Shown: positions 1-25,283 of the stretch, piece after piece
How the letters are laid out: each line of letters starts with the position of its first letter
Position numbering within the stretch: position 1 is the first letter of the stretch
NCBI GenBank assembly: GCA_947626845.1
Contig: CANQTW010000003.1
Span: forward strand, 1 to 64,000
Length of the DNA: 64,000 nt
Source: an uncultured Oscillospiraceae bacterium
GTDB taxonomy: Bacteria; Bacillota; Clostridia; Oscillospirales; Oscillospiraceae
Direction of reading: 5' to 3'
Translations under genes and position numbers: made by a program
The notes under the pieces: model-generated
Database searches by the model: none
Told to the model about the DNA's origin: nothing
The model's input: only the letters and a program-made list of their open reading frames with translations

Positions 1-80
1 TATCAGGAAAAATCAAATGGTATCAAATCCCCCAAGCAAAAACGGTTAGAATTGAATTTCACTTTGCGAGTGGGAATGAA
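1..80. repeat. Right end of an element lying left of the window, with core site A
   Basis: The core CGAGTGGGAATGAA lies at 67-80. The sequence before it resembles the bases before the other cores (a TCAAAT stretch, AAGCAAAAACGG, then TTAGAATTGA), as at 7780-7830 and 25050-25110. This implies another element, cut by the window edge, ends here, and that the array continues to the left. No gene is seen in 1-288. Confidence 0.6.
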
Positions 81-138
81 AATCTGAAACCCCGGACCCG
101 CTGCGGCGCAAGGGCTCCGGGATTTCAAGGCCCTCCCG

Positions 139-156
139 TGATAACGATTTGATAAC
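139..156 (+). repeat. Left-end arm repeats of IME1 (TGATAAC pair, 11-bp period)
   Basis: Two TGATAAC heptamers lie at 139-145 and 150-156, 72 bp inside core A. The same 11-bp spacing recurs at the IME2 left end (TGATAGC) and at all right ends. They are probable integrase or excisionase arm-binding sites, since one helical turn separates them. Confidence 0.6.
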
Positions 157-247
157 GCTCCCCTCAAACCGCTTTATTCTGCATCCCCGGTGGATTGCAG
201 GTAAAAAGTGTTCTTTTGCGGTTTCCGGGTGACAAAATCCATATTTG

Positions 248-286
248 AAAGCCCTTACCGATGGCAACGTCGGTAAGGGCTTTTTT
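248..286. terminator. Terminator hairpin between the left end and the XRE repressor
   Basis: A stem of AAAGCCCTTACCG pairs with CGGTAAGGGCTTT around a ten-base loop and is followed by a T-run on the plus strand. It ends just before the stop codon of the minus-strand repressor. It would insulate the element from upstream transcription and could also end the repressor transcript. Confidence 0.8.
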
Positions 287-288
287 GT

Positions 289-822
289 CTATTCGTCTGT
301 GTCCAGCTTGTCCCGGAGGGCGTCCACAAGAGCATCGCTCAGCTCCTGCGAGGGGACTTTGGCCCACCGCTGGGTTGTGTCGTACTTGGGGTAGTTGTAC
401 CGCCAGCGGTCATAGTCCTCGCCGGTGATCTCCCCGGCCTCCAGCCGCCGTTTCTGCTCCGCCCAGGCGGTGAGCATTTCAAACATGGCATGGTAGGTCG
501 TACCCTTGGACCTGTCCAGCCGGAGGCAGACCTCACCGTCAATTTCCCCGACGGTCAGGCCCCGGATGTCCTCCAAGGCAAAGAGAGTGTGCATCAGGCC
601 AATGTCGGTGTCTATGTCCGGGACGGTCAGGGCGCTGGGAGAGATGTCAAAGAAGCCGGCAAGCGAGTTGGTTAGCTCCGACTTTGGTGTACGGCTCCCC
701 GTTTCGTACTGCGCCATCCGCACGTCGGCGGAGCGTTCCGGGAACCCCATCACTTGACCGAGATATTTCTGCGTGACGCCATTCTTGTTGCGGAAGAAGC
801 GGATACGTTCACCAATCGACAT
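289..822 (-). CDS. XRE-family repressor of IME1
   Basis: A 177-aa protein with an N-terminal Cro/CI-type helix-turn-helix (starting MSIGERIRFF, with VRMAQYETGSRTPK in the recognition region) and a C-terminal part without a recognised enzyme domain. The ATG at 822 is preferred because a GGAG ribosome site lies just upstream and because longer frames would run into the gene's own promoter at 860-888. It is divergent from the excisionase-integrase operon, with two TGTTTAGAAAC repeats in the shared gap. That is the layout of a lysogeny-like switch that keeps integrase expression low. A homologue occupies the same place in IME2. Confidence 0.88.
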   Translation of the reverse strand: MSIGERIRFFRNKNGVTQKYLGQVMGFPERSADVRMAQYETGSRTPKSELTNSLAGFFDISPSALTVPDIDTDIGLMHTLFALEDIRGLTVGEIDGEVCLRLDRSKGTTYHAMFEMLTAWAEQKRRLEAGEITGEDYDRWRYNYPKYDTTQRWAKVPSQELSDALVDALRDKLDTDE

Positions 823-859
823 AGCAGTCAACTCCGTTCTGTGTAGTGGGAATACCTGA

Positions 860-961
860 AGTATAGCAGATATGTTTAGAAACGTCAAGAGAAAAATAAA
901 TAAATTTGTTTAGAAACTTTTCTCTGAAACTCTTGACATAACGGAATAGGTTTAGTATAAT
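860..961. promoter_or_regulatory. Divergent promoters and operator repeats of IME1
   Basis: Rightward: TTGACA at 933-938, 17-bp spacer, TATAAT at 956-961. Leftward (minus strand): TTGACG from 883-888, 17-bp spacer, TATACT from 860-865. TGTTTAGAAAC occurs at 873-883, overlapping the leftward -35, and at 907-917, upstream of the rightward promoter. The repeats are the likely operator of the XRE protein. IME2 keeps the layout at 8601-8702. Confidence 0.8.
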
Positions 962-1007
962 AGGGCTACGTTAAGCAAATAGCGTTAATACACAAGGAGG
1001 GACCATA

Positions 1008-1196
1008 ATGGAAAACAGATTCATCAATGCAGAAGAAATCGCCGCTGAGCTGGGCGTATCCAAGCCCTACGCTTACAAGCTCATCCGGCAGCTCAACGAG
1101 GAACTGAAGGGCAAGGGCTTTATCACCGTATCGGGGCGGGTCAACCGACAGTATTTCAATGAGCGGTTCTACTGGACCAGGAAGGAGGAGAACTGA
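1008..1196 (+). CDS. Excisionase-like small helix-turn-helix protein of IME1
   Basis: A 62-aa protein starting MENRFINAEEIAAELGVS, a MerR/excisionase-type winged-helix fold (the 'AEELGVSKPYAYKLI' type of helix-turn-helix). ATG 1008 has AAGGAGG seven bases upstream, and the stop overlaps the integrase ATG by one base. Position and size point to a directionality factor that bends the ends for excision, or to a regulator of the integrase. The function is inferred from family resemblance and context. Confidence 0.8.
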   Translation: MENRFINAEEIAAELGVSKPYAYKLIRQLNEELKGKGFITVSGRVNRQYFNERFYWTRKEEN

Positions 1197-2272
1197 TGCC
1201 GGTATTCAAGGACGACAAACGGGGCACCTGGTACGTCATGGTTTGGTATCAGGACTGGACAGGGGAGCGGAAACAGAAGTGCAAAAGAGGCTTTTCCACC
1301 AAGCGGGAGGCCCAGGAATGGGAGCGCAGCTTCCAGTTGCAGACCTCCGCCGACCTGGATATGACCTTTGAAGCCTTCGTGGAGCTCTACACCAAGGATG
1401 TGAAGCCCCGGCTCAAGGAGAACACCTGGCAGACAAAGGAGAACATTATCCAGAAGAAGATCTTGCCCTACTTCGGCAAACGGAAGATCAGCGAGATCAC
1501 CACCAAAGACGTGATTGCATGGCAGAACGAGCAGTTGGCCTACCGGGATGAGAACCACAAGCCCTATTCATCCTCCTATCTCAAGACTCTGCACAACCAG
1601 CTCAGCGCCATCCTCAACCACGCTGTCCGTTTCTACGATCTGCGCTCCAATCCCGCCGCCAAGGCCGGGAACATGGGGACAGAGGAACGGAAGGAGATGC
1701 TGTTCTGGACGAAAGAGGAGTATCTGAAATTCGCGGAGGCCATGATGGACAAGCCTGTTTCCTATTACGCATTTGAGATGCTCTATTGGTGCGGTATCCG
1801 GGAGGGGGAGCTGCTGGCCCTCACCCCGGCGGACTTCGACTTCGAGGCCGGGACGGTCAGGATCAACAAGTCCTATCAGCGGCTCCACAAGGAGGATATC
1901 ATTACCTCTCCCAAAACGAAGAAAAGCAACCGGACCGTCAAGATGCCGGATTTCCTTCGGGATGAGATGAAGGACTACCTGGGGATGCTCTACGGGGTCA
2001 AGAAAAAGGACCGTATCTTCACCTGCACAAAGAGTTACCTCCATCACGAGATGGACAGGGGAGCGAAAGCGGCTGGGGTCAAGCGCATTAGGATACACGA
2101 TTTGAGACATTCACACATTTCGCTTCTGATCGACATGGGCTTCTCGGCGGTGGCGATTGCTGACAGGGTAGGGCACGAGAGCATTGAGATCACCTACCGT
2201 TATGCGCACTTGTTTCCGTCCAAGCAGACGGAGATGGCAAACAAACTGGACTTTGAAAGGATGGGGAAATAA
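1196..2272 (+). CDS. int: Tyrosine integrase of IME1
   Basis: A 358-aa site-specific recombinase with a Tn916-like layout: N-terminal arm-binding domain (about 1-50), SAM-like core-binding domain (about 55-150) and C-terminal catalytic domain. The catalytic set is complete: R202 (GIREGE), H301 and R304 (HDLRH), H327 (GHES) and Y336 (YAHLF). It should join the element ends at the CGAGTGGGAATGAA core. It is translationally coupled to the excisionase-like gene upstream and to the mobC-like gene downstream (stop and start overlap at 2270-2274). The IME2 homologue is clearly more divergent in this gene than in mobC. Confidence 0.95.
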   Translation: MPVFKDDKRGTWYVMVWYQDWTGERKQKCKRGFSTKREAQEWERSFQLQTSADLDMTFEAFVELYTKDVKPRLKENTWQTKENIIQKKILPYFGKRKISEITTKDVIAWQNEQLAYRDENHKPYSSSYLKTLHNQLSAILNHAVRFYDLRSNPAAKAGNMGTEERKEMLFWTKEEYLKFAEAMMDKPVSYYAFEMLYWCGIREGELLALTPADFDFEAGTVRINKSYQRLHKEDIITSPKTKKSNRTVKMPDFLRDEMKDYLGMLYGVKKKDRIFTCTKSYLHHEMDRGAKAAGVKRIRIHDLRHSHISLLIDMGFSAVAIADRVGHESIEITYRYAHLFPSKQTEMANKLDFERMGK

Positions 2273-2592
2273 TGTCAGCCAAGAACCTGGACAACAAAAA
2301 TCGTTGGAGAAACAAGACTGTGGCCTTCCGGGTGTCCCCGGAGGAGGACGAGCAAATCGAGGCCGCTGTACGGCTCTCCGGCCTCACCAAGCAGGACTAC
2401 ATCACCCGGCGGCTTCTGTGCCAGGACGTGGTGGTGCAGGGCAATCCCAGGGTCTACAAGGCCCTCAGAGATGAATTGGCCGCTGTGCTTACGGAGTTGC
2501 GGCGCATCGAGGCGGGGAGCGTCGTGGACGGCGACTTACTGGACACCATCAACATGATCGCCGCAATCTTGAAAGGAATGAAGGAGGAATGA
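2272..2592 (+). CDS. MobC-like relaxosome accessory protein of IME1
   Basis: A 106-aa protein with an N-terminal ribbon-helix-helix-type DNA-binding segment (KTVAFRVSPEEDEQIEAAV) and a helical C-terminus, as in plasmid mobilization MobC proteins. The ATG overlaps the integrase stop. It lies two genes before the relaxase and probably binds oriT to help the relaxase nick DNA. The IME2 copy differs at 7 of 106 residues by my comparison, far fewer than the integrases do. Confidence 0.8.
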   Translation: MSAKNLDNKNRWRNKTVAFRVSPEEDEQIEAAVRLSGLTKQDYITRRLLCQDVVVQGNPRVYKALRDELAAVLTELRRIEAGSVVDGDLLDTINMIAAILKGMKEE

Positions 2593-2596
2593 TTGA

Positions 2597-3754
2597 TTGA
2601 AGGATTCCCAGGAAACGAAAAGGACTGTCCCGGTTCCGTCTGTTGGCACAGACGGGGAACAGCCCATTTCTCAAAAACGCACCTCAAGTATAGCAGAGAA
2701 AGCCTCTGAAAGCAACCCCCAAGAAAAAAGATTGGAGGAGCTTATGAGGCAGGTACAGCGGATGAACGACCCGGCGTATCTCCCCACGGTTTCCATGAAT
2801 GAGCTCTACGAGAACGTGTACCAGTGCAAACCACCTGTCATCGACGGTCTGCTCTATCCGGGGACGTATCTGTTTGCCGGAGCGCCCAAGGTAGGGAAGT
2901 CTTTCTTGATGGCCCAGCTTGCCTATCATGTCAGCACCGGCCTCACCTTATGGGGCTATCCCGTACACAAGGGAACAGTTCTCTATCTGGCGTTGGAGGA
3001 TGACCATCGGCGCTTGCAGGAGCGGCTATACCGAATGTTCGGTTTGGAGGCCACCAACGATCTTCTATTCGCTATATGCGCCAAGCAGGTCGGCGGCGGA
3101 CTGGAAGAACAGCTTCGTCGATTCGTGGAGGAACATCCCGACACAAGGCTTATTATCATCGACACGCTCCAGAAAGTCAGAGAGGCCGGCGGGGACAAAT
3201 ACAGCTACGCCAATGATTATGAGCTGGTAGGGAAACTAAAGCGTTTTGCTGACGGCTGTGGCATCTGCCTCCTGCTGGTTCATCATACCCGTAAACAGCA
3301 GGCCGATGATAGGTTCGACATGATCTCTGGCACCAACGGCCTTGCTGGGGCGGCGGACGGAGCGTTTCTTCTTCAGAAGGAGAAGCGAACCGATGACACC
3401 GCCACCCTGGACGTGACTGGACGCGACCAGCAGGACCAAAGGCTCCATCTGACGCGCGATAGGGAGCGCCTGATATGGATGATGGACCGGGCGGAAACGG
3501 AGCTGTGGAATGAAGCATTTGATCCTGTTCTGGAGGCCGTAGCGGGTTTTATAACGGATGATATGCCGTCATGGGCAGGCACCGCCACGGAGCTGGCGGA
3601 GACCCTGAAGCTGGATATGAAGCCCAACGCCCTGGCTATGCGGCTCAACGTCCGGGCTGGGAGGCTGTTAGCGGAGTACCACATCCGCTATGAGAACGCC
3701 CGCACTCACGCCGGGAGGAGCATCTGCCTGACGCTGGAGCCTCCCGAAACGTGA
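2597..3754 (+). CDS. RepA-like AAA/RecA-fold ATPase of IME1
   Basis: A 385-aa protein read from TTG 2597, with AAGGAGG nine bases upstream. A Walker A motif, GAPKVGKSFL, is followed by a Walker B-like strand (TRLIIIDTLQKV) and VHHTRK, typical of hexameric RepA/DnaB-type helicases and Mu-type AAA_25 ATPases. The C-terminal part (ATELAETLKLDMKPNALAMR) looks like a DNA-binding winged helix. In mobile elements such proteins support element replication or unwinding after excision. No separate initiator gene is seen. Confidence 0.85.
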   Translation: MKDSQETKRTVPVPSVGTDGEQPISQKRTSSIAEKASESNPQEKRLEELMRQVQRMNDPAYLPTVSMNELYENVYQCKPPVIDGLLYPGTYLFAGAPKVGKSFLMAQLAYHVSTGLTLWGYPVHKGTVLYLALEDDHRRLQERLYRMFGLEATNDLLFAICAKQVGGGLEEQLRRFVEEHPDTRLIIIDTLQKVREAGGDKYSYANDYELVGKLKRFADGCGICLLLVHHTRKQQADDRFDMISGTNGLAGAADGAFLLQKEKRTDDTATLDVTGRDQQDQRLHLTRDRERLIWMMDRAETELWNEAFDPVLEAVAGFITDDMPSWAGTATELAETLKLDMKPNALAMRLNVRAGRLLAEYHIRYENARTHAGRSICLTLEPPET

Positions 3755-4130
3755 CGACCGTGACGGCCATGACGACTATTTTGAGAGCGGGGGCGGTGTC
3801 AAAAACATCGTCACGGTCGTCACGGCTGTCACGGGGCCCCGCACGAGCCCAGCGCAGCGGGTCGTGTGGGGAGAGGAGGAGCAAGGGAGTGAACGTAGTT
3901 TTCGCCACAGGCGGAAACGGAGTTGAACGGACTTTGCGACGACGATGTGCAGGGTGCCCTTTTCAAAGGGCAGCCCTGCTGGGGAGGCAACCGCAGTTGC
4001 CGGGGCAAAGCCCCGAAACCACCCCGTAGGGCGCAAGGGCACTTTTGATGCAAAGTGTCAAAAGTGCTTTTGCGTTACTTTCGCAGAAAGTAACAAAGGC
4101 CGCCGCTGGCGCGGCGAAAGGAGTGTTGAT
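3755..4130. other. Probable oriT / structured noncoding gap of IME1
   Basis: This gap before the relaxase gene has repeated GTGACG units (3751-3780) that reappear inverted as GTCACG units (about 3810-3836). A GCAGGG...CCCTGC hairpin lies at 3949-3981 and a GTTACTTTC-gca-GAAAGTAAC hairpin at 4073-4093. The same blocks are conserved in IME2 (11477-11861) although nothing here is clearly coding. The last hairpin resembles the inverted repeat of Mob/Pre (MobV) recognition sites. The nick site itself is not determined. Confidence 0.6.
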
Positions 4131-5141
4131 TTGAATAGAACGATTAGCGTCATGGTGGGCCGCGGCTCGGTGAACCACAACAGCCGGAAGTTCCACGCAA
4201 AGAACACTGACCCGGAACGTTCCCACCTCAATATAGACTACTGCAACGAGGACATCAAGGCTGTCTACCACGAGCTGTTTGATGAGGCCCTCCAGCGGTA
4301 TAATGACAAGCAGACCAGGGCGGACCGTGTGATCACGGACTACTACGAGAAGATCCGCTCCGGCGAGCAGGAAAAGCCTTTCCATGAGATCATCTTTCAA
4401 GTGGAAAACAGGGACGACATGAGCGCCGTGAGCGCGGAAGGCCAGCTTGCGGCGGCAGTGCTGGATGAGTTTATGAGGGACTTTCAGGAACGCAATCCGA
4501 ACCTCCGGGTGTTCTCGGCTCACCTCCACATGGACGAGGCAACGCCCCATCTGCACATCGACTTCGTTCCCTTCACTACCGGCAGCAAGAGGGGACTGGA
4601 CACCAGGGTGTCTCTCAAACAGGCGCTGTCCACCCAAGGCTTCAAGGGCGGCACCAGAGGCGACACTGAGTGGAGCCAGTGGGTACGGGCTGAAAAAGAA
4701 CAGCTCGCCTCTGTGATGGAGCGCCACGGGATCGAGTGGGAGGACAAGGGGACCCACGACCAGCATCTGTCGGTCCTGGACTACAAGAAAGAGCAGCGGG
4801 CGAGGGAAGTAGCCGCGCTTGAGGTGGAGCAGGCCCAGAAACAGGAGCAGGTGGACCGTCAGGAGCAGCGCCTGAAGGAGCTGGCCCCGGCGGTGAAGAA
4901 CTTGGAGCAGTTGGCGGTACAGTTCTCCGAGGACCCCGAACAGGTACTCCCGGAGGCAGGCCCGTTAGAGTCCGCCAGGATCTACCGGGAGAGGGAGGAG
5001 GTGAGGGACTATGAGCGACTGAAGCGAGTCATCGGTCCGGAGCAGACAGACAGGATATTGGAGGCCGCCAGACAGCAGGAACAGGCTGAAAAGGATCGTA
5101 AACGCGCCGCCAGACGGAAAGCAGATTTAGACGCACGATAA
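4131..5141 (+). CDS. Mob/Pre (MobV-type) relaxase of IME1, shortened C-terminus
   Basis: A 336-aa relaxase starting at TTG 4131, with AAAGGAG seven bases upstream (first residues MNRTISVMVGRGS). The metal-binding motif HLHMDEATPHLHIDF marks the plasmid recombination/mobilization family. The C-terminus is a charged coiled coil. Compared with IME2, about 59 codons are missing in frame after 'YRE' (the equivalent of 12724-12900), which shortens the coiled coil but leaves the catalytic domain intact. It should nick oriT and lead the strand into a helper's conjugation channel. Confidence 0.9.
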   Translation: MNRTISVMVGRGSVNHNSRKFHAKNTDPERSHLNIDYCNEDIKAVYHELFDEALQRYNDKQTRADRVITDYYEKIRSGEQEKPFHEIIFQVENRDDMSAVSAEGQLAAAVLDEFMRDFQERNPNLRVFSAHLHMDEATPHLHIDFVPFTTGSKRGLDTRVSLKQALSTQGFKGGTRGDTEWSQWVRAEKEQLASVMERHGIEWEDKGTHDQHLSVLDYKKEQRAREVAALEVEQAQKQEQVDRQEQRLKELAPAVKNLEQLAVQFSEDPEQVLPEAGPLESARIYREREEVRDYERLKRVIGPEQTDRILEAARQQEQAEKDRKRAARRKADLDAR

Positions 5142-5160
5142 ATGAAACGGAGGTAATCTT

Positions 5161-5535
5161 ATGGAAAAATTCATCTACGACGAGAGCAACGGACTGTGGT
5201 ACGAGCGCCAGGGGGACTCTTTCATCCCCTGCCTGTCTCTGCCGGAGGACCACCAGTCCATCGGCCTATGGGGAATGCGGCACCTGCGGTACATCAAGGA
5301 ATACCGCAAGGGCCTCTACACAAGCCTTCTGTTGAACGGCAAACTGAACAGCTACCTGGCGGACATTGACTGTCAAGCCCAGGAGCAATTAGACACCATT
5401 ATCCGCCAAATGGCCCAGACCCAGGGCGTCACCGAGGCGTTGAAAGCAGCAGACCCGATGGCCTGGGTGGGGAAGATGAACAATATCGAAGCGTGTGCGA
5501 GAGAAATTGTGAATCAGGAGATCATATTTACCTGA
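5161..5535 (+). CDS. tnpV: TnpV-family protein of IME1
   Basis: A 124-aa protein of the TnpV family common on clostridial mobilizable elements; the conserved blocks IYDESNGLWYERQGD and RHLRYIKEYRKGLY are clear. The molecular role is unknown, and no catalytic motif is apparent. GGAGG lies nine bases before ATG 5161. It follows the relaxase by 19 bases and is the last backbone gene. In IME2 the homologue at 13070 has the same spacing to the relaxase end. Confidence 0.85.
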   Translation: MEKFIYDESNGLWYERQGDSFIPCLSLPEDHQSIGLWGMRHLRYIKEYRKGLYTSLLLNGKLNSYLADIDCQAQEQLDTIIRQMAQTQGVTEALKAADPMAWVGKMNNIEACAREIVNQEIIFT

Positions 5536-5585
5536 GAAGCTTTGCGCAATCGAAGCACTCCCCTTATTCGGTACGGAGCAATGGA

Positions 5586-5619
5586 GAACCGCCTTGGTAC
5601 TCGAGTGCCAGGGCGGTTC
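5586..5619. terminator. Hairpin after tnpV of IME1
   Basis: GAACCGCC at 5586-5593 pairs with GGCGGTTC at 5612-5619, with CTCGAG in the loop region (5600-5605). It has no strong T-run, so termination is uncertain. It sits between the element backbone and the oppositely oriented anti-sigma gene. Confidence 0.45.
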
Positions 5620-5731
5620 AGTCTCATAAGGCATACTTTGATTCAACAGGATTTCTATTTATTGCTGCTCGTGGCATTTATCAACCAATGCCAGGTGCCA
5701 TGCAATATAAGACGCACTAAAATTGATTCGT

Positions 5732-6763
5732 TCATTTCTGAGATTCCACGGGAAATGTGACGCTCCAGTTTCCCTCAATAAGTGTGTCACTTGTCACAAA
5801 ATATCCAAATGGTTCGTATTGACTAATGTTATTTTCAGGTAAATCAAAAACATATTCAACGTAACGGTCTGTGTATTCATTATTCAGAGAAAAACTGATT
5901 GCGGCGGCACAATAAATTACATCTCCATTCAAATTTTTAAAATAGATATATCCGTGGTTATCTGTTTCAAAAACATTGAAATATTGGACTTGAATATGCA
6001 GTTTTTCCTCGACAAAACCAATGCCGGTTATTTCGACACCGTTGACAGGAGAGTAGAGATTGCCTTGCGGGATCAACACAGTGAAATCTTTGCTGTATTT
6101 CTCATATGCAGATCCGCTACCGCCGAAAACATATGCAGGTTTTATTGTTTCTTTTTTTGCTTGAACTGCACTTAGATTCAATCCGAATATAGCCTCATCA
6201 AATTCGTTCTTTTGGCACAGAAGTTTCTTTACTCTTAGTGTGATTTTATCGCCCGGAACAGGTTTGTTATCCCATTGTGTAATGCTTATGAGAAAGGTTG
6301 CTGTTCTGCTGTCCGCATCATAGCCGATGTTCTGACAACTGCTTGAGCAATCGAAAGGGGTATTAATCGAATAGCTGTCAAACAAGTCTGTCGTCTCGTC
6401 GATTCGGTCTAAACCAAGATCACGAACTGCAACATAAGCCTTCAGTTCATCGCCGTCAATGTACGCAGATACAACTTCAAATTGGATCTCATTATCTTCG
6501 CAGGACAGGTGGACAGGTTTCAGCTTTTGAGCTGCTGCCGGATAGATCTGATACAGCAAGTCATAAGCGGGCTCATAATCCATAGCGGCCATAGCTGGAA
6601 CCGCTGTAATGAATAAAACCATAACAGCGGCCGCGACCGCAACTATGCGGCGCAGAGAATATAAACTGTATCGTTTTGATACATACGATTCTTTTCGGTG
6701 GGCATCGAAGATAAAGTCATCTCGGACCTCACCCACAGCATCCTGTAATAAAGCAGATTTCAT
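5732..6763 (-). CDS. DUF4179-type membrane anti-sigma factor (IME1 cargo)
   Basis: A 343-aa protein with a short cytoplasmic N-terminus (about 1-35), one membrane segment (about 40-60, AVAAAVMVLFITAVPAM) and a large extracellular domain rich in beta strands, as in DUF4179 anti-sigma factors. Its ATG overlaps the stop of the sigma gene (ATGA at 6760-6763), so the two are co-translated. It probably holds the sigma factor at the membrane until a signal arrives. IME2 lacks this pair, so it is element cargo. Confidence 0.85.
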   Translation of the reverse strand: MKSALLQDAVGEVRDDFIFDAHRKESYVSKRYSLYSLRRIVAVAAAVMVLFITAVPAMAAMDYEPAYDLLYQIYPAAAQKLKPVHLSCEDNEIQFEVVSAYIDGDELKAYVAVRDLGLDRIDETTDLFDSYSINTPFDCSSSCQNIGYDADSRTATFLISITQWDNKPVPGDKITLRVKKLLCQKNEFDEAIFGLNLSAVQAKKETIKPAYVFGGSGSAYEKYSKDFTVLIPQGNLYSPVNGVEITGIGFVEEKLHIQVQYFNVFETDNHGYIYFKNLNGDVIYCAAAISFSLNNEYTDRYVEYVFDLPENNISQYEPFGYFVTSDTLIEGNWSVTFPVESQK

Positions 6764-7849: not shown

Positions 7850-7917
7850 AAATCCGTGGTTATAGGGGACTCAAGGCCCTTGAAAACACCGGGTTTTTCA
7901 AAATCCAAGGTTTGATT

Positions 7918-10326: not shown

Positions 10327-10330
10327 TTGA

Positions 10331-17464: not shown

Positions 17465-17498
17465 TTGTTAAATTAACGCATGATATTTGTTGCATGTT

Positions 17499-17627: not shown

Positions 17628-17737
17628 TGCACAGAACGAAAAGTATAGCGGAAGGCAAGCAATAAGTTATGAAAGCACAAAAATCTTCGTTTTAATGTAT
17701 TTATAAGTATCAACACACAATTAGGAGGCAATGGTCA

Positions 17738-18082: not shown

Positions 18083-18098
18083 CGATCCCCGTCTCAAG

Positions 18099-18227
18099 TG
18101 GCAACACAAGGGCAACAAAAGCGGATAGCGCATGCTTTACTGATAATACGGATAATGTAGATATGCTTGATAAAATGCATAAATAAATTTACTTAGAATA
18201 GATTTCAAGGCGGCGAATGGGAATGAT
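18099..18227 (+). repeat. Right end with core site E
   Basis: TGGCAAC at 18099-18105 and GGGCAAC at 18110-18116; core CGAATGGGAATGAT at 18214-18227, again 115 bp from the first arm. It lies directly after the 114-aa gene. Confidence 0.72.
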
Positions 18228-18286
18228 TCTCACTGGCAATGCATTAAACGTATTTAAACTGAAAATGTGAGTATAAGGAGAATCTT

Positions 18287-18526
18287 TTGGAAAATTACTT
18301 AATGGCTCTTAAGGATATATTGGTTATACTTTCTCCAATAATTGTGGCCTACATAAGTTATAGAAGCAACAAAAAGTCGAAGCGAGAAATTCGGCAAGAT
18401 ATAGAAAAAATAGTAAGAGAAAAGGACGCAGAAACAACTCAAATCTTGCAACGAATTAGTGCGGAGTTAGAAAGTCAAAAACAGTTAGCTTCTTGGAACA
18501 ATTCTTTGCCACAAACAAACGAATAA
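18287..18526 (+). CDS. Small membrane-anchored coiled-coil protein (cassette E-F)
   Basis: A 79-aa protein read from TTG 18287 behind AAGGAG. It has one N-terminal membrane segment (about 5-24, LKDILVILSPIIVAYISY) followed by a basic linker and a charged coiled coil (about 30-68), similar to small phage- or element-encoded membrane proteins. The 3' end overlaps the next frame by 34 bases. I recognise no family. A role as a membrane partner of the following small protein is possible. Confidence 0.55.
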   Translation: MENYLMALKDILVILSPIIVAYISYRSNKKSKREIRQDIEKIVREKDAETTQILQRISAELESQKQLASWNNSLPQTNE

Positions 18527-18783
18527 CTGGTTTGGCGGGATCAGAGCGGTATGGGAATATAAGTTCACTACCTGCGATGATTAGTGGCATCAGAGCTTCA
18601 ATTGACGCCAACCTCTTTTCTGCCGAAGAGTTATATGAACTAAAAAGAATGTTGGAAAAAATTAATCTTCCAAGCGAGAGCGATAGTTTATACCCGTATG
18701 AAATTACATATCTGATGGCGTACAAAAAACTGATAAGAGATATAGATGCGATACTCCACGATGCGGAAGAAGAGGGCAAGTAA
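18493..18783 (+). CDS. Small hypothetical protein overlapping the preceding gene (cassette E-F)
   Basis: A 96-aa frame from TTG 18493; a start further downstream, such as the ATG of MISGIRASID, is also possible. The product is mainly helical and acidic at the C-terminus (IDAILHDAEEEGK). The overlap with the 18287-18526 frame means either translational coupling, a frameshifted fusion of the two, or a natural frameshift mutation in one original gene. No family is recognised. Confidence 0.45.
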   Translation: MEQFFATNKRITGLAGSERYGNISSLPAMISGIRASIDANLFSAEELYELKRMLEKINLPSESDSLYPYEITYLMAYKKLIRDIDAILHDAEEEGK

Positions 18784-18818
18784 TTATCAGTAAGTATTTT
18801 GCAGTATACCCCCAGCAT

Positions 18819-18965
18819 TGATAGCACTCCCCGATAGCATTTTGATAGCAGAAAGTCGGATACCCCATAGGATATGGATAATACACATCAAATCGAACCA
18901 AACGGAACAAAATCCACTACGCAAAAAAGTTTAGAAACAGGTTTCATTTGGCGAGTGGGAGTAAT
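18819..18965 (+). repeat. Right end with core site F
   Basis: TGATAGC at 18819-18825, CGATAGC at 18832-18838 and TGATAGC at 18843-18849 (the last two 11 bp apart); core CGAGTGGGAGTAAT at 18952-18965, 120 bp from 18832. GTTTAGAAAC just before the core is identical to the XRE operator repeat of IME1. Confidence 0.75.
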
Positions 18966-18971
18966 TTTTAT

Positions 18972-19012
18972 AAAATTCAGGCTTTGCGCGTTGCTTAAAG
19001 CCTGAATTTTTT
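18972..19012 (+). terminator. Terminator after core F
   Basis: AAAATTCAGGCTTT pairs with AAAGCCTGAATTTT, with a T-run. It occupies the same position after the core as the terminators of IME1 and IME2 occupy in their left regions, and insulates the block. Confidence 0.75.
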
Positions 19013-19023
19013 GTAAACTGAAA

Positions 19024-19385
19024 ACCACTCGTTAAACGAGTGGTTCAAAAAAGCCTATGGCGATGAGGAAGAATCCCTGTTAGAATAAACATACGGTCTG
19101 GCAACTGCATGTATATTCTAGCAGGGAGACATTCATATGGGAATGGACGACGTAAAGAGTTTAGCATACAAGATACAAAAATGCAAAGGAAAAAGTACAG
19201 GGAGTAAAAACCATCCAATGAAGGGGAAGCGGAAAGAAGAATAAAAGATGAATTCAAAAATAGAAGAAAAAGTGTAGGAGATAGGAATTTTTTGCGCGAC
19301 TGACAGACATACTTACACGTTTGACGTGTCCGCGAGGAACATAGGGCTTTGCCCGCATGTGAAAAACCACCGGCTTCGCCGGTGG
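19024..19385 (+). mobile_element. Remnant of an IS200/IS605-type insertion sequence
   Basis: The left hairpin AACCACTCGTT/AACGAGTGGTT is at 19024-19046 and the right hairpin CCACCGGC/GCCGGTGG at 19367-19385. An inverted repeat CCCTGTTAGAATA/TATTCTAGCAGGG (19076-19126) precedes a start codon region (19138) encoding a short tnpA-like N-terminus that soon loses frame (MDDVKSLAY, where intact enzymes have SLAHT). The transposase body is missing. This is an internally deleted, MITE-like copy that would need a transposase in trans. Confidence 0.65.
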
Positions 19386-19522
19386 ATGTTTATTTATGAC
19401 TTACTTGATAACACGAATTAATTGACATATTTAATATGATTAAATACTGAAGGATTTGCTGGCCGACAAGTCAGAATATTCTCAAGAACTTGCGACTTTT
19501 ATCGAACAAATTTATTTTTGTA

Positions 19523-19551
19523 TTGACATTGTTTACATTGAAGTCTATAAT
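19523..19551 (+). promoter_or_regulatory. Consensus sigma-A promoter of the six-gene block
   Basis: TTGACA at 19523-19528, 17-bp spacer, TATAAT at 19546-19551. Transcription would start near 19558, just before ATG 19585, which supports that start and excludes a longer reading frame. Confidence 0.85.
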
Positions 19552-19584
19552 CAAACTGTAAAATGTTCAGCCGAGGATGGAAAA

Positions 19585-19803
19585 ATGGGAATCAGCTATA
19601 AAAAGCTATGGTTAATACTTGTTGAAAAAGAGATCTCTCCGGCAACGCTCCGAAAAGATCTCAATATAGCCACGGGAACTATGACCAAGTTGCGGAGGAA
19701 TGAGGAAGTTGCACTCTCTGTTCTGCTTCGAATATGTGAATACCTAGATTGCAACATTGGTGATATTTGTGATGCTGTGAAGACATATTTGCCCACAATA
19801 TGA
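19585..19803 (+). CDS. Cro/CI-type HTH regulator leading the six-gene block
   Basis: A 72-aa protein starting MGISYKKLWLILVEKEIS, almost entirely a helix-turn-helix of the HTH_26 type (TLRKDLNIATGTMTKLRRNE). A perfect promoter ends 33 bases upstream of ATG 19585, so longer in-frame starts are unlikely. It precedes the zinc-ribbon gene by 18 bases and probably regulates the block and itself. Confidence 0.85.
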   Translation: MGISYKKLWLILVEKEISPATLRKDLNIATGTMTKLRRNEEVALSVLLRICEYLDCNIGDICDAVKTYLPTI

Positions 19804-19821
19804 GCACAGGGGGGATTGCTG

Positions 19822-20979
19822 ATGATTATTACATTAGAACCTGGGGAGAAAATATTATTGCAAACATCTGAGGGCGGTGTTCATTTTTGCGGTGGTGAGG
19901 AAGATGGCACAGAGATAGATGATCTTTGCTTGACAAATTTGGATTTGATTTATACATACGAGGATTCTACTGGTGGCATCTTCTCAAAATCTAAAGATGT
20001 TGTAGAGAGAATTCCACTTGATATAATTGAAGTAACAGATGGCATTCCCCAAGTACAGTATGCCAAGGATACGAATTATAGCTGGTCGCTACAAATCTGC
20101 CGAAAAGACGGAATTTGCGATTTTTTCTGGATCAACGGCCCAAAAAAGAAGATATACCCTCAGTGGGTGTCGGCAATCAAAGATGCGGTGGCCACTTATG
20201 CGGAGAGCCATCAGGAAGAATTGGATGTAAAAGAGCTGCCCAAAGAAGAACCGTATATCAAAAATGAAACTACGCTTACTAATCCCGAAGAACCACAAAA
20301 ATACTCAATACCCAAAGCTGTAATACACTGTGCAAAGTGCGGCGAAGAAAATGATATTAAGGCCCGGTTTTGCCAGAAATGTGGCGCACCTTTCCACGAA
20401 GAAAATGTGGTATCTCCAATGGTGAATGATACTCCGGCAGAAGCAAAAGCAGAATCGCCGCGAAAGAGTCCGTCACTGGAAAATGTACAACAAAAGCGGG
20501 AAGATGCGGCATCTGTAATAACGGATGTGCAGTTTTGCACGAACTGTGGGGCACCAGTGAAAGCAGGGTTTGAATTCTGCCCAGAATGTGGAGCGAGGAT
20601 ACCTGTTTCAACGGGGACGGGAAATGAAAATGAAGACCAGCAACATCCAAAGAAGCAGTGCCCAAACTGTGGAGAATTGATGCCTTTGGATATGTTCTAT
20701 TGCCTAAACTGCGGTTTTCAATTTCGTGATCCCAATAGGCAAGATGAAGACTTCCAAGATGTCGTCCACAGGGTTCGGATGATGGAGGGCGTTTGGAAAA
20801 ACAAGTGGGTTGCGTTGGTACTATGTATTTTCTTCGGTATTTTCGGAGTCCACCGCTTTTATGAAGGGAAAGCAGTGACAGGAATCCTGTTTTTATTCAC
20901 ATTTGGGTTGCTTGGATTCGGTGTGGTGTTTGATTTGGTTCGTATTGCTCTGAAACCAAATCCCTATCGAGTAAAATGA
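19822..20979 (+). CDS. Zinc-ribbon/TM2 protein with N-terminal PH-like domain
   Basis: A 385-aa protein. Residues about 1-120 look like a PH-type beta domain (ITLEPGEKILLQTSEGG, WSLQICRKDG). Three CxxC...CxxC zinc ribbons follow (CAKCGEE...CQKCG, CTNCGAP...CPECG, CPNCGEL...CLNCG). The C-terminus is a TM2 domain with two membrane helices (FFGIFGVHRFYEGK, GLLGFGVVFDLVRI). ATG 19822 is seven bases after AGGGGGG. It may sense or scaffold at the membrane. Similar ribbon proteins accompany SPFH proteins in the B. subtilis ydjFGHI locus; this link is inference. Confidence 0.8.
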   Translation: MIITLEPGEKILLQTSEGGVHFCGGEEDGTEIDDLCLTNLDLIYTYEDSTGGIFSKSKDVVERIPLDIIEVTDGIPQVQYAKDTNYSWSLQICRKDGICDFFWINGPKKKIYPQWVSAIKDAVATYAESHQEELDVKELPKEEPYIKNETTLTNPEEPQKYSIPKAVIHCAKCGEENDIKARFCQKCGAPFHEENVVSPMVNDTPAEAKAESPRKSPSLENVQQKREDAASVITDVQFCTNCGAPVKAGFEFCPECGARIPVSTGTGNENEDQQHPKKQCPNCGELMPLDMFYCLNCGFQFRDPNRQDEDFQDVVHRVRMMEGVWKNKWVALVLCIFFGIFGVHRFYEGKAVTGILFLFTFGLLGFGVVFDLVRIALKPNPYRVK

Positions 20980-21015
20980 TTTCATTTCGAAAGTGAGTAG
21001 AGCGAGGTAAGCAAA

Positions 21016-22248
21016 ATGGCCTATTGTAGGAACTGCGGAACAAAATTAGTTGAAGGGGCCAAATTCTGTCAGAAATGTGGCTGCCCGACAAAAGAAAGTA
21101 ACACAGAGCGGACACCGCGACAGCAAGAGTTTGCTGGAAGAATATACAAATGCCCCAATTGTGGTGAGGTCCTGGAGTCTTTTTGTGCTGTATGCCCAGC
21201 CTGCGGGCAAGAAATCAGAGACAGCCATGTTTCAGAAACTGTACGTGAATTTACGGATAAGTTAGAGCGAGCGCGGACGCTTGACCAAAAAGTGGAACTA
21301 ATTAGAAGTTTTCCGGTAGCCAACAATAAAGAAGATATTTTTGAGTTCATCATTTTAGCTTCGACAAATATAACGAATGATATGCATCGGGATTTGTATA
21401 AGGCGTGGATATCAAAATTTGAACAGTGTTATCAAAAAGCTAAAGTGATGTTCGAAAACACGGAAGATTTTGAAAATGTTCAGAAAATATACGAAATGAC
21501 TCAAAAAAAGATAAAAAAGGAAAACATTGCGCAAGGTGCGAAATCAGCACAAAGAACTATCGTAAAGACAAGTGGCGTGATATCCAATATGCTGACTGTT
21601 ACCCTTACTAATGTAGGTGTTTTTGCAGGGATTTTTTTCTTGATTTGGGCTATCAATGTCAATAGGGCATACGAAAATAGTTCGATGCATGAACTAATCG
21701 GCGTTATATTATTGATTGCTTCTGCCGCCATCCTGCTCAGAAGAGGTGCGCATCTCTATGAGTATGTGATTACTGGGTTTGGTGGCGGATTATCTATTTT
21801 TTTTGGTGAATTCTTGCGAAATGGGTCACTACTTAGACTGGGCGGCTTCATGGTATTGATCATTACAGCAGTAAACTTCTTTCGACGGTTTAGTTACATA
21901 AATGTCAAAACAAAATCGGTTAATTTAAATCCAAGCTCTGAAGTAAACGGGAAAGGCCCTGAGATACCGGTTTCAACAGAGGTTGTAAAAGTGCCATTAT
22001 CAGCCTTTCTCTACTCTGAAAAAAATTATGGTGTTGTTGTTGCACTGTTTGAACATGCAGGCTTTACCAATATAAGAACTGTGCCACTTCATGATTTGCG
22101 TAAAGGCATAATTTTTAAGCGAGCAGAAGAATCCTCAAGCGAACTTGTTGCATCTATTCATGTTGATGGACACCCATTGACAATTCTCAAACGTAACTAT
22201 TCTCCTAATTCATCTGTCGTTATTTCGTACCATAGTTTCCAAAATTAA
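21016..22248 (+). CDS. Zinc-ribbon membrane protein
   Basis: A 410-aa protein with two N-terminal zinc ribbons (YCRNCGTKL...CQKCG and CPNCGEV...CPACG), a helical region (about 75-190) and three or four membrane helices (about 195-290). The C-terminal cytoplasmic domain (about 320-410) begins IPVSTEVVKVPLSAFLYSEK and ends in a possible SH3- or PH-like strand set. I cannot name the family of the C-terminal part. It lies between a TM2 protein and an SPFH protein in a co-directional run, so a shared membrane complex is likely. Confidence 0.72.
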   Translation: MAYCRNCGTKLVEGAKFCQKCGCPTKESNTERTPRQQEFAGRIYKCPNCGEVLESFCAVCPACGQEIRDSHVSETVREFTDKLERARTLDQKVELIRSFPVANNKEDIFEFIILASTNITNDMHRDLYKAWISKFEQCYQKAKVMFENTEDFENVQKIYEMTQKKIKKENIAQGAKSAQRTIVKTSGVISNMLTVTLTNVGVFAGIFFLIWAINVNRAYENSSMHELIGVILLIASAAILLRRGAHLYEYVITGFGGGLSIFFGEFLRNGSLLRLGGFMVLIITAVNFFRRFSYINVKTKSVNLNPSSEVNGKGPEIPVSTEVVKVPLSAFLYSEKNYGVVVALFEHAGFTNIRTVPLHDLRKGIIFKRAEESSSELVASIHVDGHPLTILKRNYSPNSSVVISYHSFQN

Positions 22249-22268
22249 CTCATAAAGAGGTGTGTGAT

Positions 22269-23591
22269 ATGGGATTATTCAAAAAGAATTCAAATGGCGG
22301 TATTATGGATATCATCCGCTGTGATGAAACTTCATATTTGGTATGGAAGTGGCACCCAAATGGATCGCAGGCTGGGAAAAACAATAGGGAAAATGCAATA
22401 CGTTGGGGTTCTGTATTGCGAATAAAGGATGGCGAAGTTGCCGTTTTTGTTTACAATCAGCCCAACGGAATTGCACAGGATTTTATTGAGGGGCCTTTTG
22501 ATCAAATCCTTCAAACCAATAACCTGCCTGTACTGGCAAACATTATTGGTAAAATGTACGACGGCGGTACACCCTTTCAGGCAGAGGTTTACTTTATTAA
22601 CCTTGCCCGGATTATCCAAGTCAAGTTTGGGGTGCCGTTCTTTGATGTGTTCGACCCGCGTTTTGAGGACTTTGGGATCCCTGTAGCTGTCAGAGGGACA
22701 ATCAGCTTTCAAATCAAGGACTACCGTGAGTTTGTCAAACTCCATCGGCTCAGCAATTTCAGCTTGGAGGACTTCCAGGGACAGATTAGAGATGCCGTCG
22801 CTCGTTACATAAAAGATACCGTTGCAAACGCCCCTGCAGTCAATAATATTCCTGTAGTACAACTTGAAACAAAGATTGCTCAGATCAATGACGCGATTGA
22901 GTATGACATTTGTGCGAGGTTGAGTGAGAGCTTTGGGGTAATTGTACATGGTGTAGACATTGGAGCGATTGAGCTTGACAAATCAAGCGAGGGTTATCAC
23001 CGGCTTATGGTGGTGACAAGGGATGTTGCTGAGACGAAGGTCGAGGCTGAAACCGCAGATTATGTAGAACGGCTGCGCATCCAGCGTGAAGAGGGCCAAT
23101 ATGCTTTGCACAAACAAACCCAATCGGCTAATATTGGTGCATACCAGATCGAAAAGCAAGCAGAAGTTGGCATCGCCGGGGCCGAGGCATTGGGAAAGAT
23201 GGGCAGCAATGATGCCGGAAATGTCAATTTGGGGGGAGACGGCGTCGGCTTTAATCCCGCTGCTATGATGGCAGGGATGGCACTGGGCGGCGCAGTTGGT
23301 CAGAATATAGCGGGAACCATGAATGGCATGCTGTCGGGCATCAATCAGCAACCTAGCCCCGGTGCCGTACCGCCGCCGGTTCCTACAGCAGCGTATCATG
23401 TTGTAATCAACGGTCAAGCGGCAGGCCCATTTGATATGACAACTTTAACTCAGATGGCTGCTGAAGGTCGCCTTAATGCTGATAGCCTGGTATGGAAGGC
23501 AGGAATGAGCCAGTGGGAGAAGGCTGGGGCAATGGATGATTTGAAGGCCATCTTTGCGAATGCGGCGTCTCCAATTCTTCAAAATGAATAA
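22269..23591 (+). CDS. SPFH-domain (YdjI-like) protein with C-terminal GYF_2 domain
   Basis: A 440-aa protein. Residues about 1-30 resemble the YdjI/virion-core start (MGLFKKNSNGGIMDIIRCDE); an SPFH/band-7 domain follows (about 40-240), then a helical and glycine-rich linker, and a GYF_2 domain (about 370-435; GQAAGPFDMTTLTQMAAEG, WKAGMSQWEKAG). ATG 22269 is eight bases behind AAAGAGG. SPFH proteins build large oligomeric membrane-associated scaffolds; GYF_2 modules bind partner peptides. It is the likely core of the block's complex. Confidence 0.88.
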   Translation: MGLFKKNSNGGIMDIIRCDETSYLVWKWHPNGSQAGKNNRENAIRWGSVLRIKDGEVAVFVYNQPNGIAQDFIEGPFDQILQTNNLPVLANIIGKMYDGGTPFQAEVYFINLARIIQVKFGVPFFDVFDPRFEDFGIPVAVRGTISFQIKDYREFVKLHRLSNFSLEDFQGQIRDAVARYIKDTVANAPAVNNIPVVQLETKIAQINDAIEYDICARLSESFGVIVHGVDIGAIELDKSSEGYHRLMVVTRDVAETKVEAETADYVERLRIQREEGQYALHKQTQSANIGAYQIEKQAEVGIAGAEALGKMGSNDAGNVNLGGDGVGFNPAAMMAGMALGGAVGQNIAGTMNGMLSGINQQPSPGAVPPPVPTAAYHVVINGQAAGPFDMTTLTQMAAEGRLNADSLVWKAGMSQWEKAGAMDDLKAIFANAASPILQNE

Positions 23592-23601
23592 GGGACGATA
23601 G

Positions 23602-24153
23602 ATGGGAAATTTTATGGATGACAAGACAATATTTGAATTGGCAAAGCAGTTTAGAAAAGCAATAGAAAACGCTCGTTTTGAGGGCTTGTTTGACAGAGAT
23701 GATAGCTTTAGTTATTTTCCCAAGAGGTGTTGTGGTGATACATGTTATCTTTTAGCAGAGTATCTCAGTTCCAAAGAGCAGGCAAGCATATATGTATGTG
23801 GCGAAGATGATAGCGGCCAGTCACACGCATGGTTAGTAATGAAAGACGAGCGTGTAAGAATGCCATCACCAATATTATTTGATATTCCAGATAATATTAA
23901 GAATGTCCTTAATGTGTATAGTGATGGCACTTATTTTGAGCCTAATGATGTTTCATACTATACGGAGGGAGATGTAATAAATGGATTAATAGTAGATATT
24001 ACAGCAGACCAGTTTGGCAGGAATTCTGTTTATGTTGGGTACATTTGTGAATTTTATAAACGATTTGTTTTTCAGTCTGCTAGCGATAATATTAACTTAT
24101 CTAATGATAGACTAAATAGATTATATCAAATTATACTTGACAATATTGATTGA
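23602..24153 (+). CDS. Transglutaminase-like (papain-fold) protein
   Basis: A 183-aa protein with a Cys-His-Asp pattern: C44 in CCGDTCYLLAEYL, H75 in QSHAWLVM and D132 in VDITADQF. This order and the surrounding residues fit transglutaminase-like cysteine peptidases or acyltransferases. No signal peptide is seen, so it is cytoplasmic. ATG 23602 follows AGGGA and the SPFH stop by 10 bases. It may cleave or crosslink a partner or a host target. The activity is inferred from the triad only. Confidence 0.65.
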   Translation: MGNFMDDKTIFELAKQFRKAIENARFEGLFDRDDSFSYFPKRCCGDTCYLLAEYLSSKEQASIYVCGEDDSGQSHAWLVMKDERVRMPSPILFDIPDNIKNVLNVYSDGTYFEPNDVSYYTEGDVINGLIVDITADQFGRNSVYVGYICEFYKRFVFQSASDNINLSNDRLNRLYQIILDNID

Positions 24154-24178
24154 TATTTAGCTGTGAGGAGTACATTTT

Positions 24179-24964
24179 ATGGATAAAGCGCCATGCCTTC
24201 CTGTTAAGATTACAGATAAAAAGTGGGCCGATATGATGCAGAACGGTTCTATTTTTATGCGGTCTTTGTATGAATATGGCTCTTGGAGCGCAGTTAAACG
24301 TGCTCAAGAAGCGAATCAATCAATAAAAAATGGAATTCAAGGCGATATAAGTGAAGGGATAGTTCGAAGAGTTGACCCCAAAATTGGTGATGACTTTTTC
24401 AATTTGTTTGCCCCCGAAGTTCGCTCAGTAATGAAAGAATGTATGTATATTGATGAAGATCGTTTTCAATATTATAAAGTTTATTGTATGTATGGGCTGA
24501 CTTATTTGATAGATGAGAGGAGATACGAGACTCCCAATGACCGTATAAATGAATTTGGAGATACGGCCGTGATTATCTTGCAACCTGACGAGTTTCTCCA
24601 CCGTTTAATTACTGGGCTGAACAAACAATTTGGGAATAATATTAACTTTCGACTGGATGAGGTTCATTATTATCCACCTGATTATTTTGGTGAATTAGAT
24701 GAGTTCTGTAAACCCAGCAGTTTTGCGTGGCAAAATGAGATGAGGATAAGGGTTGCGTTGCTTGACGAAAAAAATACTATAACGTCCGACAATGGACGAG
24801 TGTATAAAAGTCTTATTCAAAGCGCAGAGCCTATCACAGTTGAAATAGGAGATATATCAGATATTACTGTCCAAATTCCTGTTCAGGATTTGATTGATTT
24901 AAATTTACCTGACAGCATCAAATCTCCCGTATTTGTCGTATGCGGCGATGAAAGTACATTATAG
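24179..24964 (+). CDS. Hypothetical protein ending the six-gene block
   Basis: A 261-aa soluble protein, family not certain. It has an N-terminal FMRSLYEYG motif, then GDISEG, YCMYGLTYL and AWQNEMRIRVALL. This string of blocks recalls a broad group of uncharacterised proteins often found near defence genes, but I cannot assign an enzyme. GAGGAG precedes ATG 24179 and the gene follows the transglutaminase-like gene by 25 bases. It is the last gene before right end G. Confidence 0.65.
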   Translation: MDKAPCLPVKITDKKWADMMQNGSIFMRSLYEYGSWSAVKRAQEANQSIKNGIQGDISEGIVRRVDPKIGDDFFNLFAPEVRSVMKECMYIDEDRFQYYKVYCMYGLTYLIDERRYETPNDRINEFGDTAVIILQPDEFLHRLITGLNKQFGNNINFRLDEVHYYPPDYFGELDEFCKPSSFAWQNEMRIRVALLDEKNTITSDNGRVYKSLIQSAEPITVEIGDISDITVQIPVQDLIDLNLPDSIKSPVFVVCGDESTL

Positions 24965-25283
24965 GGTAATTAATCCAATGAGATTTCGTTATCACCCGTG
25001 ATAACAAAATGATAACAGCCCATCGTGTAGGCTGGATAATATGGATAGGTCAAATCGTGGAAAGACTGGGTATCATATTTTCTAAGCAAAACTGTTTAGA
25101 TTGAGATGCCTGGCAACGAGTGGGAATGAAGTTAAAACCATGAGACATATAGGAACCTTGCAGGTTTTGATTATGCGGGTGGTTTTAAAAATGCATATAA
25201 AGGAGTGATTTATTATGAAAATGAATCGTGTAGGGAGGGCCCACGAGATTTGACCCTCCAATATAAAGATGGAGGATTAAATA
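24965..25283. other. Gap with right end G and a possible leader ORF
   Basis: It holds right end G (24987-25130) and then about 150 bp of chromosomal sequence. A 12-codon frame at 25215-25253 has AAGGAG upstream, and a GGAGGG/CCCTCC hairpin overlaps its end. No larger gene is seen. Confidence 0.5.
24987..25130 (+). repeat. Right end G, the chromosomal end of the array
   Basis: Inverted GTTATCA at 24988-24994, TGATAAC at 24999-25005 and 25010-25016; core CGAGTGGGAATGAA at 25117-25130, 118 bp from the first arm. It is almost identical over about 143 bp to the IME1 right end (7706-7849). No further copy is seen to the right. Confidence 0.82.

Follow-up and report, generated by a model that had tools for sequence, protein, structure and literature searches.

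When identical attachment cores are shared by several integrated elements in tandem, the question arises how an integrase finds the right two. It is raised here by a contig of an uncultured Oscillospiraceae bacterium (CANQTW010000003.1, GenBank assembly GCA_947626845.1), the first 64,000 nucleotides of which were analysed and are referred to as the window. An earlier note on this DNA had described an array of core-bounded units in the first 25 kb. The array itself is confirmed: six intact cores (labelled 67, 7836, 17614, 18214, 18952 and 25117) and a decayed one (13874) are present, and an integrase is encoded in the first two intervals alone, which belong to two integrative and mobilizable elements (IMEs), IME1 and IME2. 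The interpretation given with it, serial accretion of cis-mobilizable elements (CIMEs) recalling gene cassettes, is as a whole supported in part. With a probability of about 0.7, the locus consists of tandem insertions into the 3' end of guaA, an integration array in which elements sharing one core are told apart by the sequence variants ('dialects') of short arm repeats, read via residues 15 and 29 of the integrase.

The core, GAR TGG GAR TRA, encodes Glu-Trp-Glu-stop and is the last 12 nt of guaA (GMP synthase), in frame. The window contains six instances of the 12-mer class GARTGGGARTRR, always on the + strand and within the array, against a mean of 0.13 and a maximum of 2 per sequence in 200 first-order Markov sequences. 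A wider motif, A...AAA.....TTW, precedes each of the six cores at a fixed distance, inside a right end of about 135 nt, and occurs in none of the 200 Markov sequences. A search with a 14-mer core at 3 mismatches performed at chance level (7 found, 6.96 expected from shuffled sequence) and was replaced by a geometric test of end structure. In 92 distinct right ends, from loci not selected by core pattern and found with a search model that itself includes the core, GARTGGGARTRR is kept in 81, with variation at the guaA wobble and stop positions alone; the other 11 are decayed. Such a restriction is as expected if the cores keep exchanging with living guaA genes. A variant core with different codons, Glu-Tyr-Glu-stop, was seen at three right ends (L338, 9304; L328, 2894, minus strand; L031, 9479, minus strand; L numbers denote loci, G numbers genomes), which may be relics or point to a second target gene. 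Two further loci have unusual arrangements: L163, from a Clostridia bin, has three tandem cores at 95-bp spacing (2003-2193), and L135 (287-14861) has a second partial guaA 3' part, a 179-aa open frame, 14.6 kb past guaA, with a tyrosine-recombinase-like open reading frame (ORF) without a match to Int1, the integrase of IME1, in between. L135 perhaps holds an element that carries its own guaA end.

The genome's own guaA, which ends in ...SKPPATIEWE, lies at the extreme end of contig C15, and the 28 bases after it match exactly the left end of a different IME, found in G071. With guaA at the end of C15 adjoining another element's left end, and the window opening at an end of contig C3, the array probably extends beyond 25 kb, with at least one further unit between guaA and position 67. 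In 60 stretches at guaA, those of the family having been chosen for long contigs, a guaA end is directly followed by an element's left arm in 29 of the 48 evaluable cases (12 of 16 within the genus); six more ends lie too near a contig end. No tRNA was found in the whole window, and an Rfam search of 1-27000 gave no match. It is very improbable that the array is an artefact of assembling a fragmented genome bin. The window does start at a contig end beside repeats, with its guaA on another contig; however, the sequences of IME1 and IME2 have diverged (by 2 to 22% across the longest of the listed repeat blocks and by 30% between the integrases), and the architecture recurs in other genomes, some of which, such as G207, are nearly complete.

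Every readable right end contains a pair of 7-mers, spaced 11 bp apart, the first of which starts some 116-121 nt ahead of the core. The left arm pair of integrase-bearing units lies at +69, +70, +71 or +81 from the start of the left core, and at up to 132 in some later loci. The 7-mers appear as TGATAAC, TGATAGC, TGGCAAC, TGACAAC, TGATACT, TGATAAG, TGGCTAC and others; a dialect is such a variant, named for example GATAAC, GATAGC or GGCAAC. The comparison of ends uses 59 units bounded on both sides, deduplicated by start and length; the fetched loci in which they were read hold 204 right ends and 73 guaA ends, overlapping loci included. Units running off the fetched stretch were dropped, as were L195 from the unit table and L232, which has runs of N, from the direction and terminator counts and the breakpoint estimate. 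Integrases were detected by similarity to Int1, a procedure that may have overlooked unrelated recombinases, above all in L142, L360 and L367.

A left arm pair is present in all 28 integrase-bearing units, versus 11 of the 31 integrase-free ones (Fisher P = 3e-8). The left and right dialects, taken from the better copy of each pair, are the same in 26 of these 28, and in G207 three tandem IMEs each have matching arms. The two exceptions are IME2 of the window (left GATAGC, right GGCAAC) and L109 (left GATAAC, right GGCAAC-like). Both are followed by one or more one-armed segments, in which no left arm rises above background; beyond these comes a right end that matches in dialect, two segments on in the window (18952) and one on in L109 (16876). 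Among 22 matches in viral contigs, a good right-arm pair was found in L277 alone.

The dialect is linked to the integrase by two positions. In 34 integrases, columns 15 and 29, both in the arm-binding domain, are the only ones of 358 that reach a normalised mutual information of 1.0 with dialect. L101, with a partial integrase, was left out of this set and of the larger one that follows. In 49 integrases, each of 13 residue 15/29 pairs, seven of them singletons, goes with one dialect: M/C or L/C with GATAAC; Q/L or Q/F with GATAGC; V/Q, I/Q, L/Q or I/S with GGCAAC; S/M with GATACT; Y/T with GACAAC; V/C with GATAAG; S/V with GATACC; and Q/T with GAGTAC. A later set of 225 genomes of the order gave 30 loci, 24 of them new. 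Core and left arm could be read in 15 of the new loci, 13 of these belonging to other families; the remaining nine were left out. The expected dialect was found in 11 of the 11 later loci whose residue pair was already known. Among the four whose pair had not occurred before, GGCAAC was found once (with L/Q), in line with residue 29, and the other three had new dialects.

Several results weigh against the preferred reading. Taken singly, the two residues predict the dialects of the 15 later loci less well than together: residue 15 fails in four (L426, L438, L441 and L447), and residue 29 in two (L426 and L447) of the 14 with a known class. Near relatives of the first set are included among the later integrases, those of L429 and L430 being nearly those of L129 and L137. 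Independent-pair sign tests on the integrase tree have 1 to 3 pairs each, too few to reach 0.05, and the nearest neighbour's dialect is predicted by the SAM-like domain as well as by the arm domain (31/35 each). Avoidance of same-dialect neighbours is mild (4 of 45, 8.8 expected, P = 0.027). Units were located by their right ends, by which right-end loss is under-counted and the comparison of left with right leans to right ends. Finally, a DNA search of 13890-25116 in 400 genomes, in which at most two candidate places were scored per genome, gave no whole one-armed segment elsewhere.

If shared ancestry alone produced the link, the arms would not be read by residues 15 and 29. The dialects do cluster strongly on the tree, needing 9 changes on one built without the arm domain (minimum 7, shuffled mean 29.1), and the equal success of the two domains and the scarcity of independent pairs agree with this explanation. 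It is nevertheless quite unlikely, considering that GATAAC with M15/C29 recurs inside a GATAGC-rich clade (L365, L368, L433, L435, L436, L446) and GGCAAC with V15/Q29 inside a GACAAC clade (L361), as a code expects, and that the perfect link in the first 34 integrases is limited to two arm-domain columns. A search of solved structures for the arm domain gave no usable match. From these sequence comparisons the link appears strong, but it is not independent proof.

According to the preferred reading, the arms would be bound by the integrase, whose N-terminal arm-binding domain would read their dialect through residues 15 and 29 together. The left arm by one core would then be paired with a right arm of the same dialect by another core, and the dialect would decide which cores recombine. 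With such own-dialect pairing, many elements could share one core. Int1 (M15/C29, GATAAC) would pair the left end at 67 with the right ends at 7836 or 25117; for the integrase of IME2, Int2 (Q15/F29, GATAGC), the partners would be 7836 on the left and 18952 on the right. Composite excisions would be expected. One-armed segments would move, if at all, chiefly as passengers of an upstream IME with a matching left end. For the GGCAAC ends no matching integrase was seen in the window, and the 600-bp segment, which has such an end, lacks a partner of its dialect there. The small one-armed segments may not be mobile on their own: they may be passengers of a matching-dialect element, or relics.

IME1 has its own integrase with matching attachment ends, Int1 and GATAAC arms on both sides. 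The Int1 domains PF14657, PF14659 and PF00589, all above cut-off, stand in the arm-binding, SAM-like and catalytic order of the IntTn916 type. The mobilization genes are NikA-like and Mob_Pre-type; no conjugation genes were found among the nine IME1 proteins scanned, an origin of transfer not having been sought. The right end of IME1 recurs in G001, where a different unit follows it; the two copies are 99-100% alike over the part that can be read.

In IME2 a GATAGC left arm stands against a GGCAAC right end. The earlier note had placed an element end at 13874 and a separate restriction-modification/OLD interval behind it. A decayed right end does lie there, but it does not appear to be a unit boundary: because the XhoI segment is also present (98.6% identity across 13835-15090 of the window) in a guaA-inserted IME of another genus (G451), which has GGCAAC as its left arm and lacks most of that right end (13745-13834), the end at 13874 is probably a relic inside IME2 (7849-17626), with which the XhoI, methyltransferase and OLD genes would belong. 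The stretch before the XhoI segment in G451 is just 87% alike, and the contig ends before its own right end. The relaxase region of IME2 (11646-13050) consists of two overlapping ORFs, unlike the single ORF of IME1, and is also split in G451 (L327, 5900-7021).

Among the 31 integrase-free units, 20 are one-armed, and 18 of these keep a good right pair. All three segments within 17627-25129 have right arms, and in none is there a left arm above background. This does not agree with the proposal that the small segments are cis-mobilizable CIMEs, which should keep the left arm. No match to an Int1-type integrase and no integrase or transfer genes were found in the three segments (the ORF 24179-24964 was scanned in padloc and ncbifam only). 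The interval said to hold two small ORFs is real, and it contains one frameshifted gene (18287-18783) matching a single 166-aa ORF in G472; the relative there has a GATAGC-type right end and a decayed core, and no core was seen before it. In the six-gene segment, about 390 bp (19007-19398) with terminal hairpins have copies of up to 96% identity elsewhere in the family; this stretch is presumably a small non-autonomous remnant of the IS200/IS605 type.

The cargo of the small units is mostly one or a few genes, for GNAT, TIR-domain, zeta-like kinase, methyltransferase, YhcG-type nuclease, glycosyltransferase and SAP-domain proteins. A terminator-like hairpin is found at the left end of 19 of 30 integrase-free units and 18 of 28 IMEs, versus 130 of 468 interior controls (P = 1e-4 for integrase-free units against controls). 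The likeness to gene cassettes holds for the anatomy, a gene with a right-hand site and mostly one direction, that of guaA: of 19 one-armed units, all but the frameshifted segment of the window have their largest ORF (at least 100 aa) on the + strand. Direction was rejected as a sign of cassettes, since IME cargo runs the same way (+ strand in 23 of 28 for genes in the last 3 kb; P = 0.38 against one-armed units). L018 is doubtful as a cassette, since G001, G011 and G024 have relatives of its gene close to the array that lack the right end in question. Beside this gene, at about 2720-2900 on the minus strand, is a short stretch with inverted ends and a similar copy in L098, resembling a miniature inverted-repeat transposable element.

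One-armed segments could be immobile relics, that is, decayed CIMEs in which cargo and right end remained after deletion of the integrase side of an IME. This is a possible explanation, at somewhat less than even odds. It accords with half-eroded left arms seen by eye in four of the 20 (L021, L106, L265, L271), with the frameshift in 18227-18964 and the decayed end at 13874, with the direction shared with IME cargo, and with a search of 299 other genomes for the 114-aa protein, which at E 1e-5 gave no match. Against it, 18 of the 20 have well-scoring right arms, and a random deletion that spares the core and removes the arm needs a breakpoint in about 60 nt, versus about 2 kb that would leave the arm (rough figures from IME1). 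With the four eroded units and L232 excluded, 15 of 26 units are one-armed, which has P = 4e-17 at p = 60/2110, 3e-5 at p = 0.2 and 3e-3 at p = 0.3; the estimate ignores selection, later arm mutation and the way the units were found. Because a random breakpoint must fall in about 60 nt, a site-specific origin of the one-armed segments is favoured over random deletion, and they may still be relics.

Movement may be examined by comparison of genomes. A 2.06-kb glycosyltransferase cassette (L028, L363, L364) has both arms and no integrase, and occurs in three genera with three left neighbours: a guaA-type coding sequence (G068), a GATAGC end (G170) and a GGCAAC end (G274). Two copies are 98% alike and about 84% alike to the third, and the homology stops within a few bases of the cores. 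In this comparison the cassette has the properties of a CIME. Since it is found in three genera with different neighbours and breaks at the cores, integrase-free units of its kind appear to move between genera, presumably by an integrase acting in trans. Serial accretion at one core, as the earlier note had it, is borne out by this cassette and by the same unit types beside other neighbours in G001 and G451. A fixed 25-kb unit was not seen: in the 400-genome search, with at most two places scored per genome, no other genome gave more than part of 13890-25116. The matches were to right ends, in large number, to relatives of the genes and, in G451, to a XhoI stretch at 99%. Recurrence in other orders holds for the IME1 right end, the XhoI segment and the 2.06-kb cassette, but not for any one-armed segment, nor was a clean empty site found. 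The terminator-like sequence by the last core in G012 and G016, searched for with a single pattern in all loci then collected, did not occur directly behind a guaA coding end. All-against-all comparisons of integrase-free units and of right-end flanks placed no one-armed segment in a second context; of the 61 flank pairs, the core-bounded integrase-free one was the two-armed glycosyltransferase cassette. For the zeta-like protein, 27 homologue loci in 230 genomes (about 1.5 kb of flank) contained no right end or core.

Comparison with known systems bears on how the small segments may move. GIsul2 of Shigella flexneri is a guaA island with the core GAGTGGGA, in which an inner core (attLR) and attR enclose CR2-sul2, a unit without an integrase; excision of CR2-sul2 has been detected, and integration needed the GIsul2 integrase (PMC9376610, as far as the source was covered). 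The target and the position of the integrase-free unit between an inner core and a right end are as in the window. In contrast, the hosts differ, GIsul2 is one island with one unit rather than a stack, and no arm dialects are described in the parts covered. With this precedent for recombination between an inner core and attR, an integron-like system may be considered in which a right end and core form a complete site and each small segment moves alone by right-end x core recombination. The gene with a right-hand site, the unit size of 0.6-2 kb, the varied cargo of one or a few genes, and the 2.06-kb cassette as an integrase-free unit moved between genera are in its favour. However, that cassette has both arms, no integrase of the right-end dialect of the 600-bp segment was seen in the window, and no one-armed segment was found twice; movement in this manner is unlikely. 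The array resembles integrons in its small cassettes, the recombination site behind the gene and the mostly uniform direction, and differs from them in that the integrases lie inside the mobile units rather than at a fixed platform, and that many integrase-free segments start with a terminator-like hairpin (attC was not sought). The integron-integrase model is far below cut-off for Int1 (35.5 versus 265 bits).

Tandem accretion of IMEs at guaA is of a known kind. Stacking at one site, with integrase-free relatives beside intact elements, has been described for ICESt1 relatives and streptococcal IMEs (PMC5704250, PMC5357655). The CIMEs keep attL and attR, unlike most integrase-free units here. 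The accreted streptococcal integrases, in the portions of the source covered, are of no particular relatedness (PMC5357655), whereas here one integrase family differs by arm dialect. ATE-1 and the streptococcal Tyr_3 elements share the tyrosine integrase and the guaA 3' end; nested dialect arrays distinguish the present locus from them as far as their descriptions were covered, gene content not having been compared in detail. The IntTn916 subgroup is described, in the part covered, as having arm-binding, core-binding and catalytic domains (PMC8138268); Int1 shares this domain order, a likeness of order and not of tree-based membership, and is distinguished by one target core with arm repeats of several dialects. 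Neither a two-residue code, nor matching arm dialects predicted by one, nor frequent one-armed integrase-free segments were found described in the literature searched, coverage of which was partial.

The features of the window are listed in Table 1. Beyond the array, relatives of the hydrolase and GDPD genes of the chromosomal side are found in G012, and of the hydrolase gene in G001.

Table 1. Features of the array and its flank in the window
Feature	Position	Strand	Remarks
Truncated right end and core of a further upstream unit	8..79	+	Core 68-79; cut off where the contig begins; inner part similar, by eye, to the L118 right end of GATAGC type
IME1, complete two-armed unit	80..7848	+	GATAAC dialect on both sides
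IME1 left arm pair	139..156	+	TGATAAC/TGATAAC
IME1 helix-turn-helix (HTH) repressor-like gene	289..888	-	HTH_19, below curated cut-off
Small HTH gene just upstream of int	1008..1196	+	Excisionase-like by position; models below cut-off
Int1, tyrosine integrase with arm-binding domain	1196..2272	+	M15, C29
NikA/MobC-like mobilization protein	2272..2592	+	
IME1 AAA_25 ATPase	2597..3754	+	
MobV/Mob_Pre-type relaxase	3945..5141	+	Mob_Pre above cut-off; MobV below cut-off
IME1 cargo	5732..7341	-	DUF4179-like protein (below cut-off), sigma factor
IME1 right end	7714..7848	+	Arm pair TGATAAC 7718-7735; core 7837-7848
IME2 unit	7849..17626	+	int2 backbone with XhoI/methyltransferase/OLD cargo
IME2 left arm pair	7918..7935	+	TGATAGC/TGATAGC
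Int2	8930..10006	+	Q15, F29
Putative relic right end inside IME2	13757..13885	+	GGCAAC-like; decayed core
XhoI-type restriction enzyme, N6/N4 DNA methyltransferase, OLD-like ATPase	13891..17464	+	
Right end, GGCAAC dialect	17497..17626	+	Core 17615-17626 (GAGTGGGAGTGA)
One-armed segment (600 bp)	17627..18226	+	114-aa gene 17738-18082; GGCAAC right end 18098-18226
One-armed segment (738 bp)	18227..18964	+	One frameshifted gene of about 166 aa, 18287-18783; GATAGC right end 18829-18964
One-armed six-gene segment (6.2 kb)	18965..25129	+	GATAAC right end 24995-25129; products: HTH, two zinc-ribbon proteins, SPFH/GYF protein, two unknowns
Chromosomal side	25130..28852	+	GNAT-like, carbon-nitrogen hydrolase-like, TagI-like and GDPD-like genes; names read from ORFs, without family search

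A more far-reaching picture is that the dialects are private addresses set by a two-residue code, by which integrases with a common core sort nested elements on one chromosome, that the one-armed segments are genes captured when an integrase recombines a core with a core-like site next to a gene, and that the guaA end in gut Clostridia is an integron-like collecting site run by several orthogonal mobile integrases; taken jointly, these propositions are doubtful. As to the question raised at the outset, the dialects and the residue pair make it directly testable. If the preferred reading is true, sequence would predict which integrases move which segments, the integrase-free ones included, and it would account for the loading of genes onto the end of one essential gene in gut bacteria, those observed including restriction, TIR-domain, acetyltransferase and glycosyltransferase genes.

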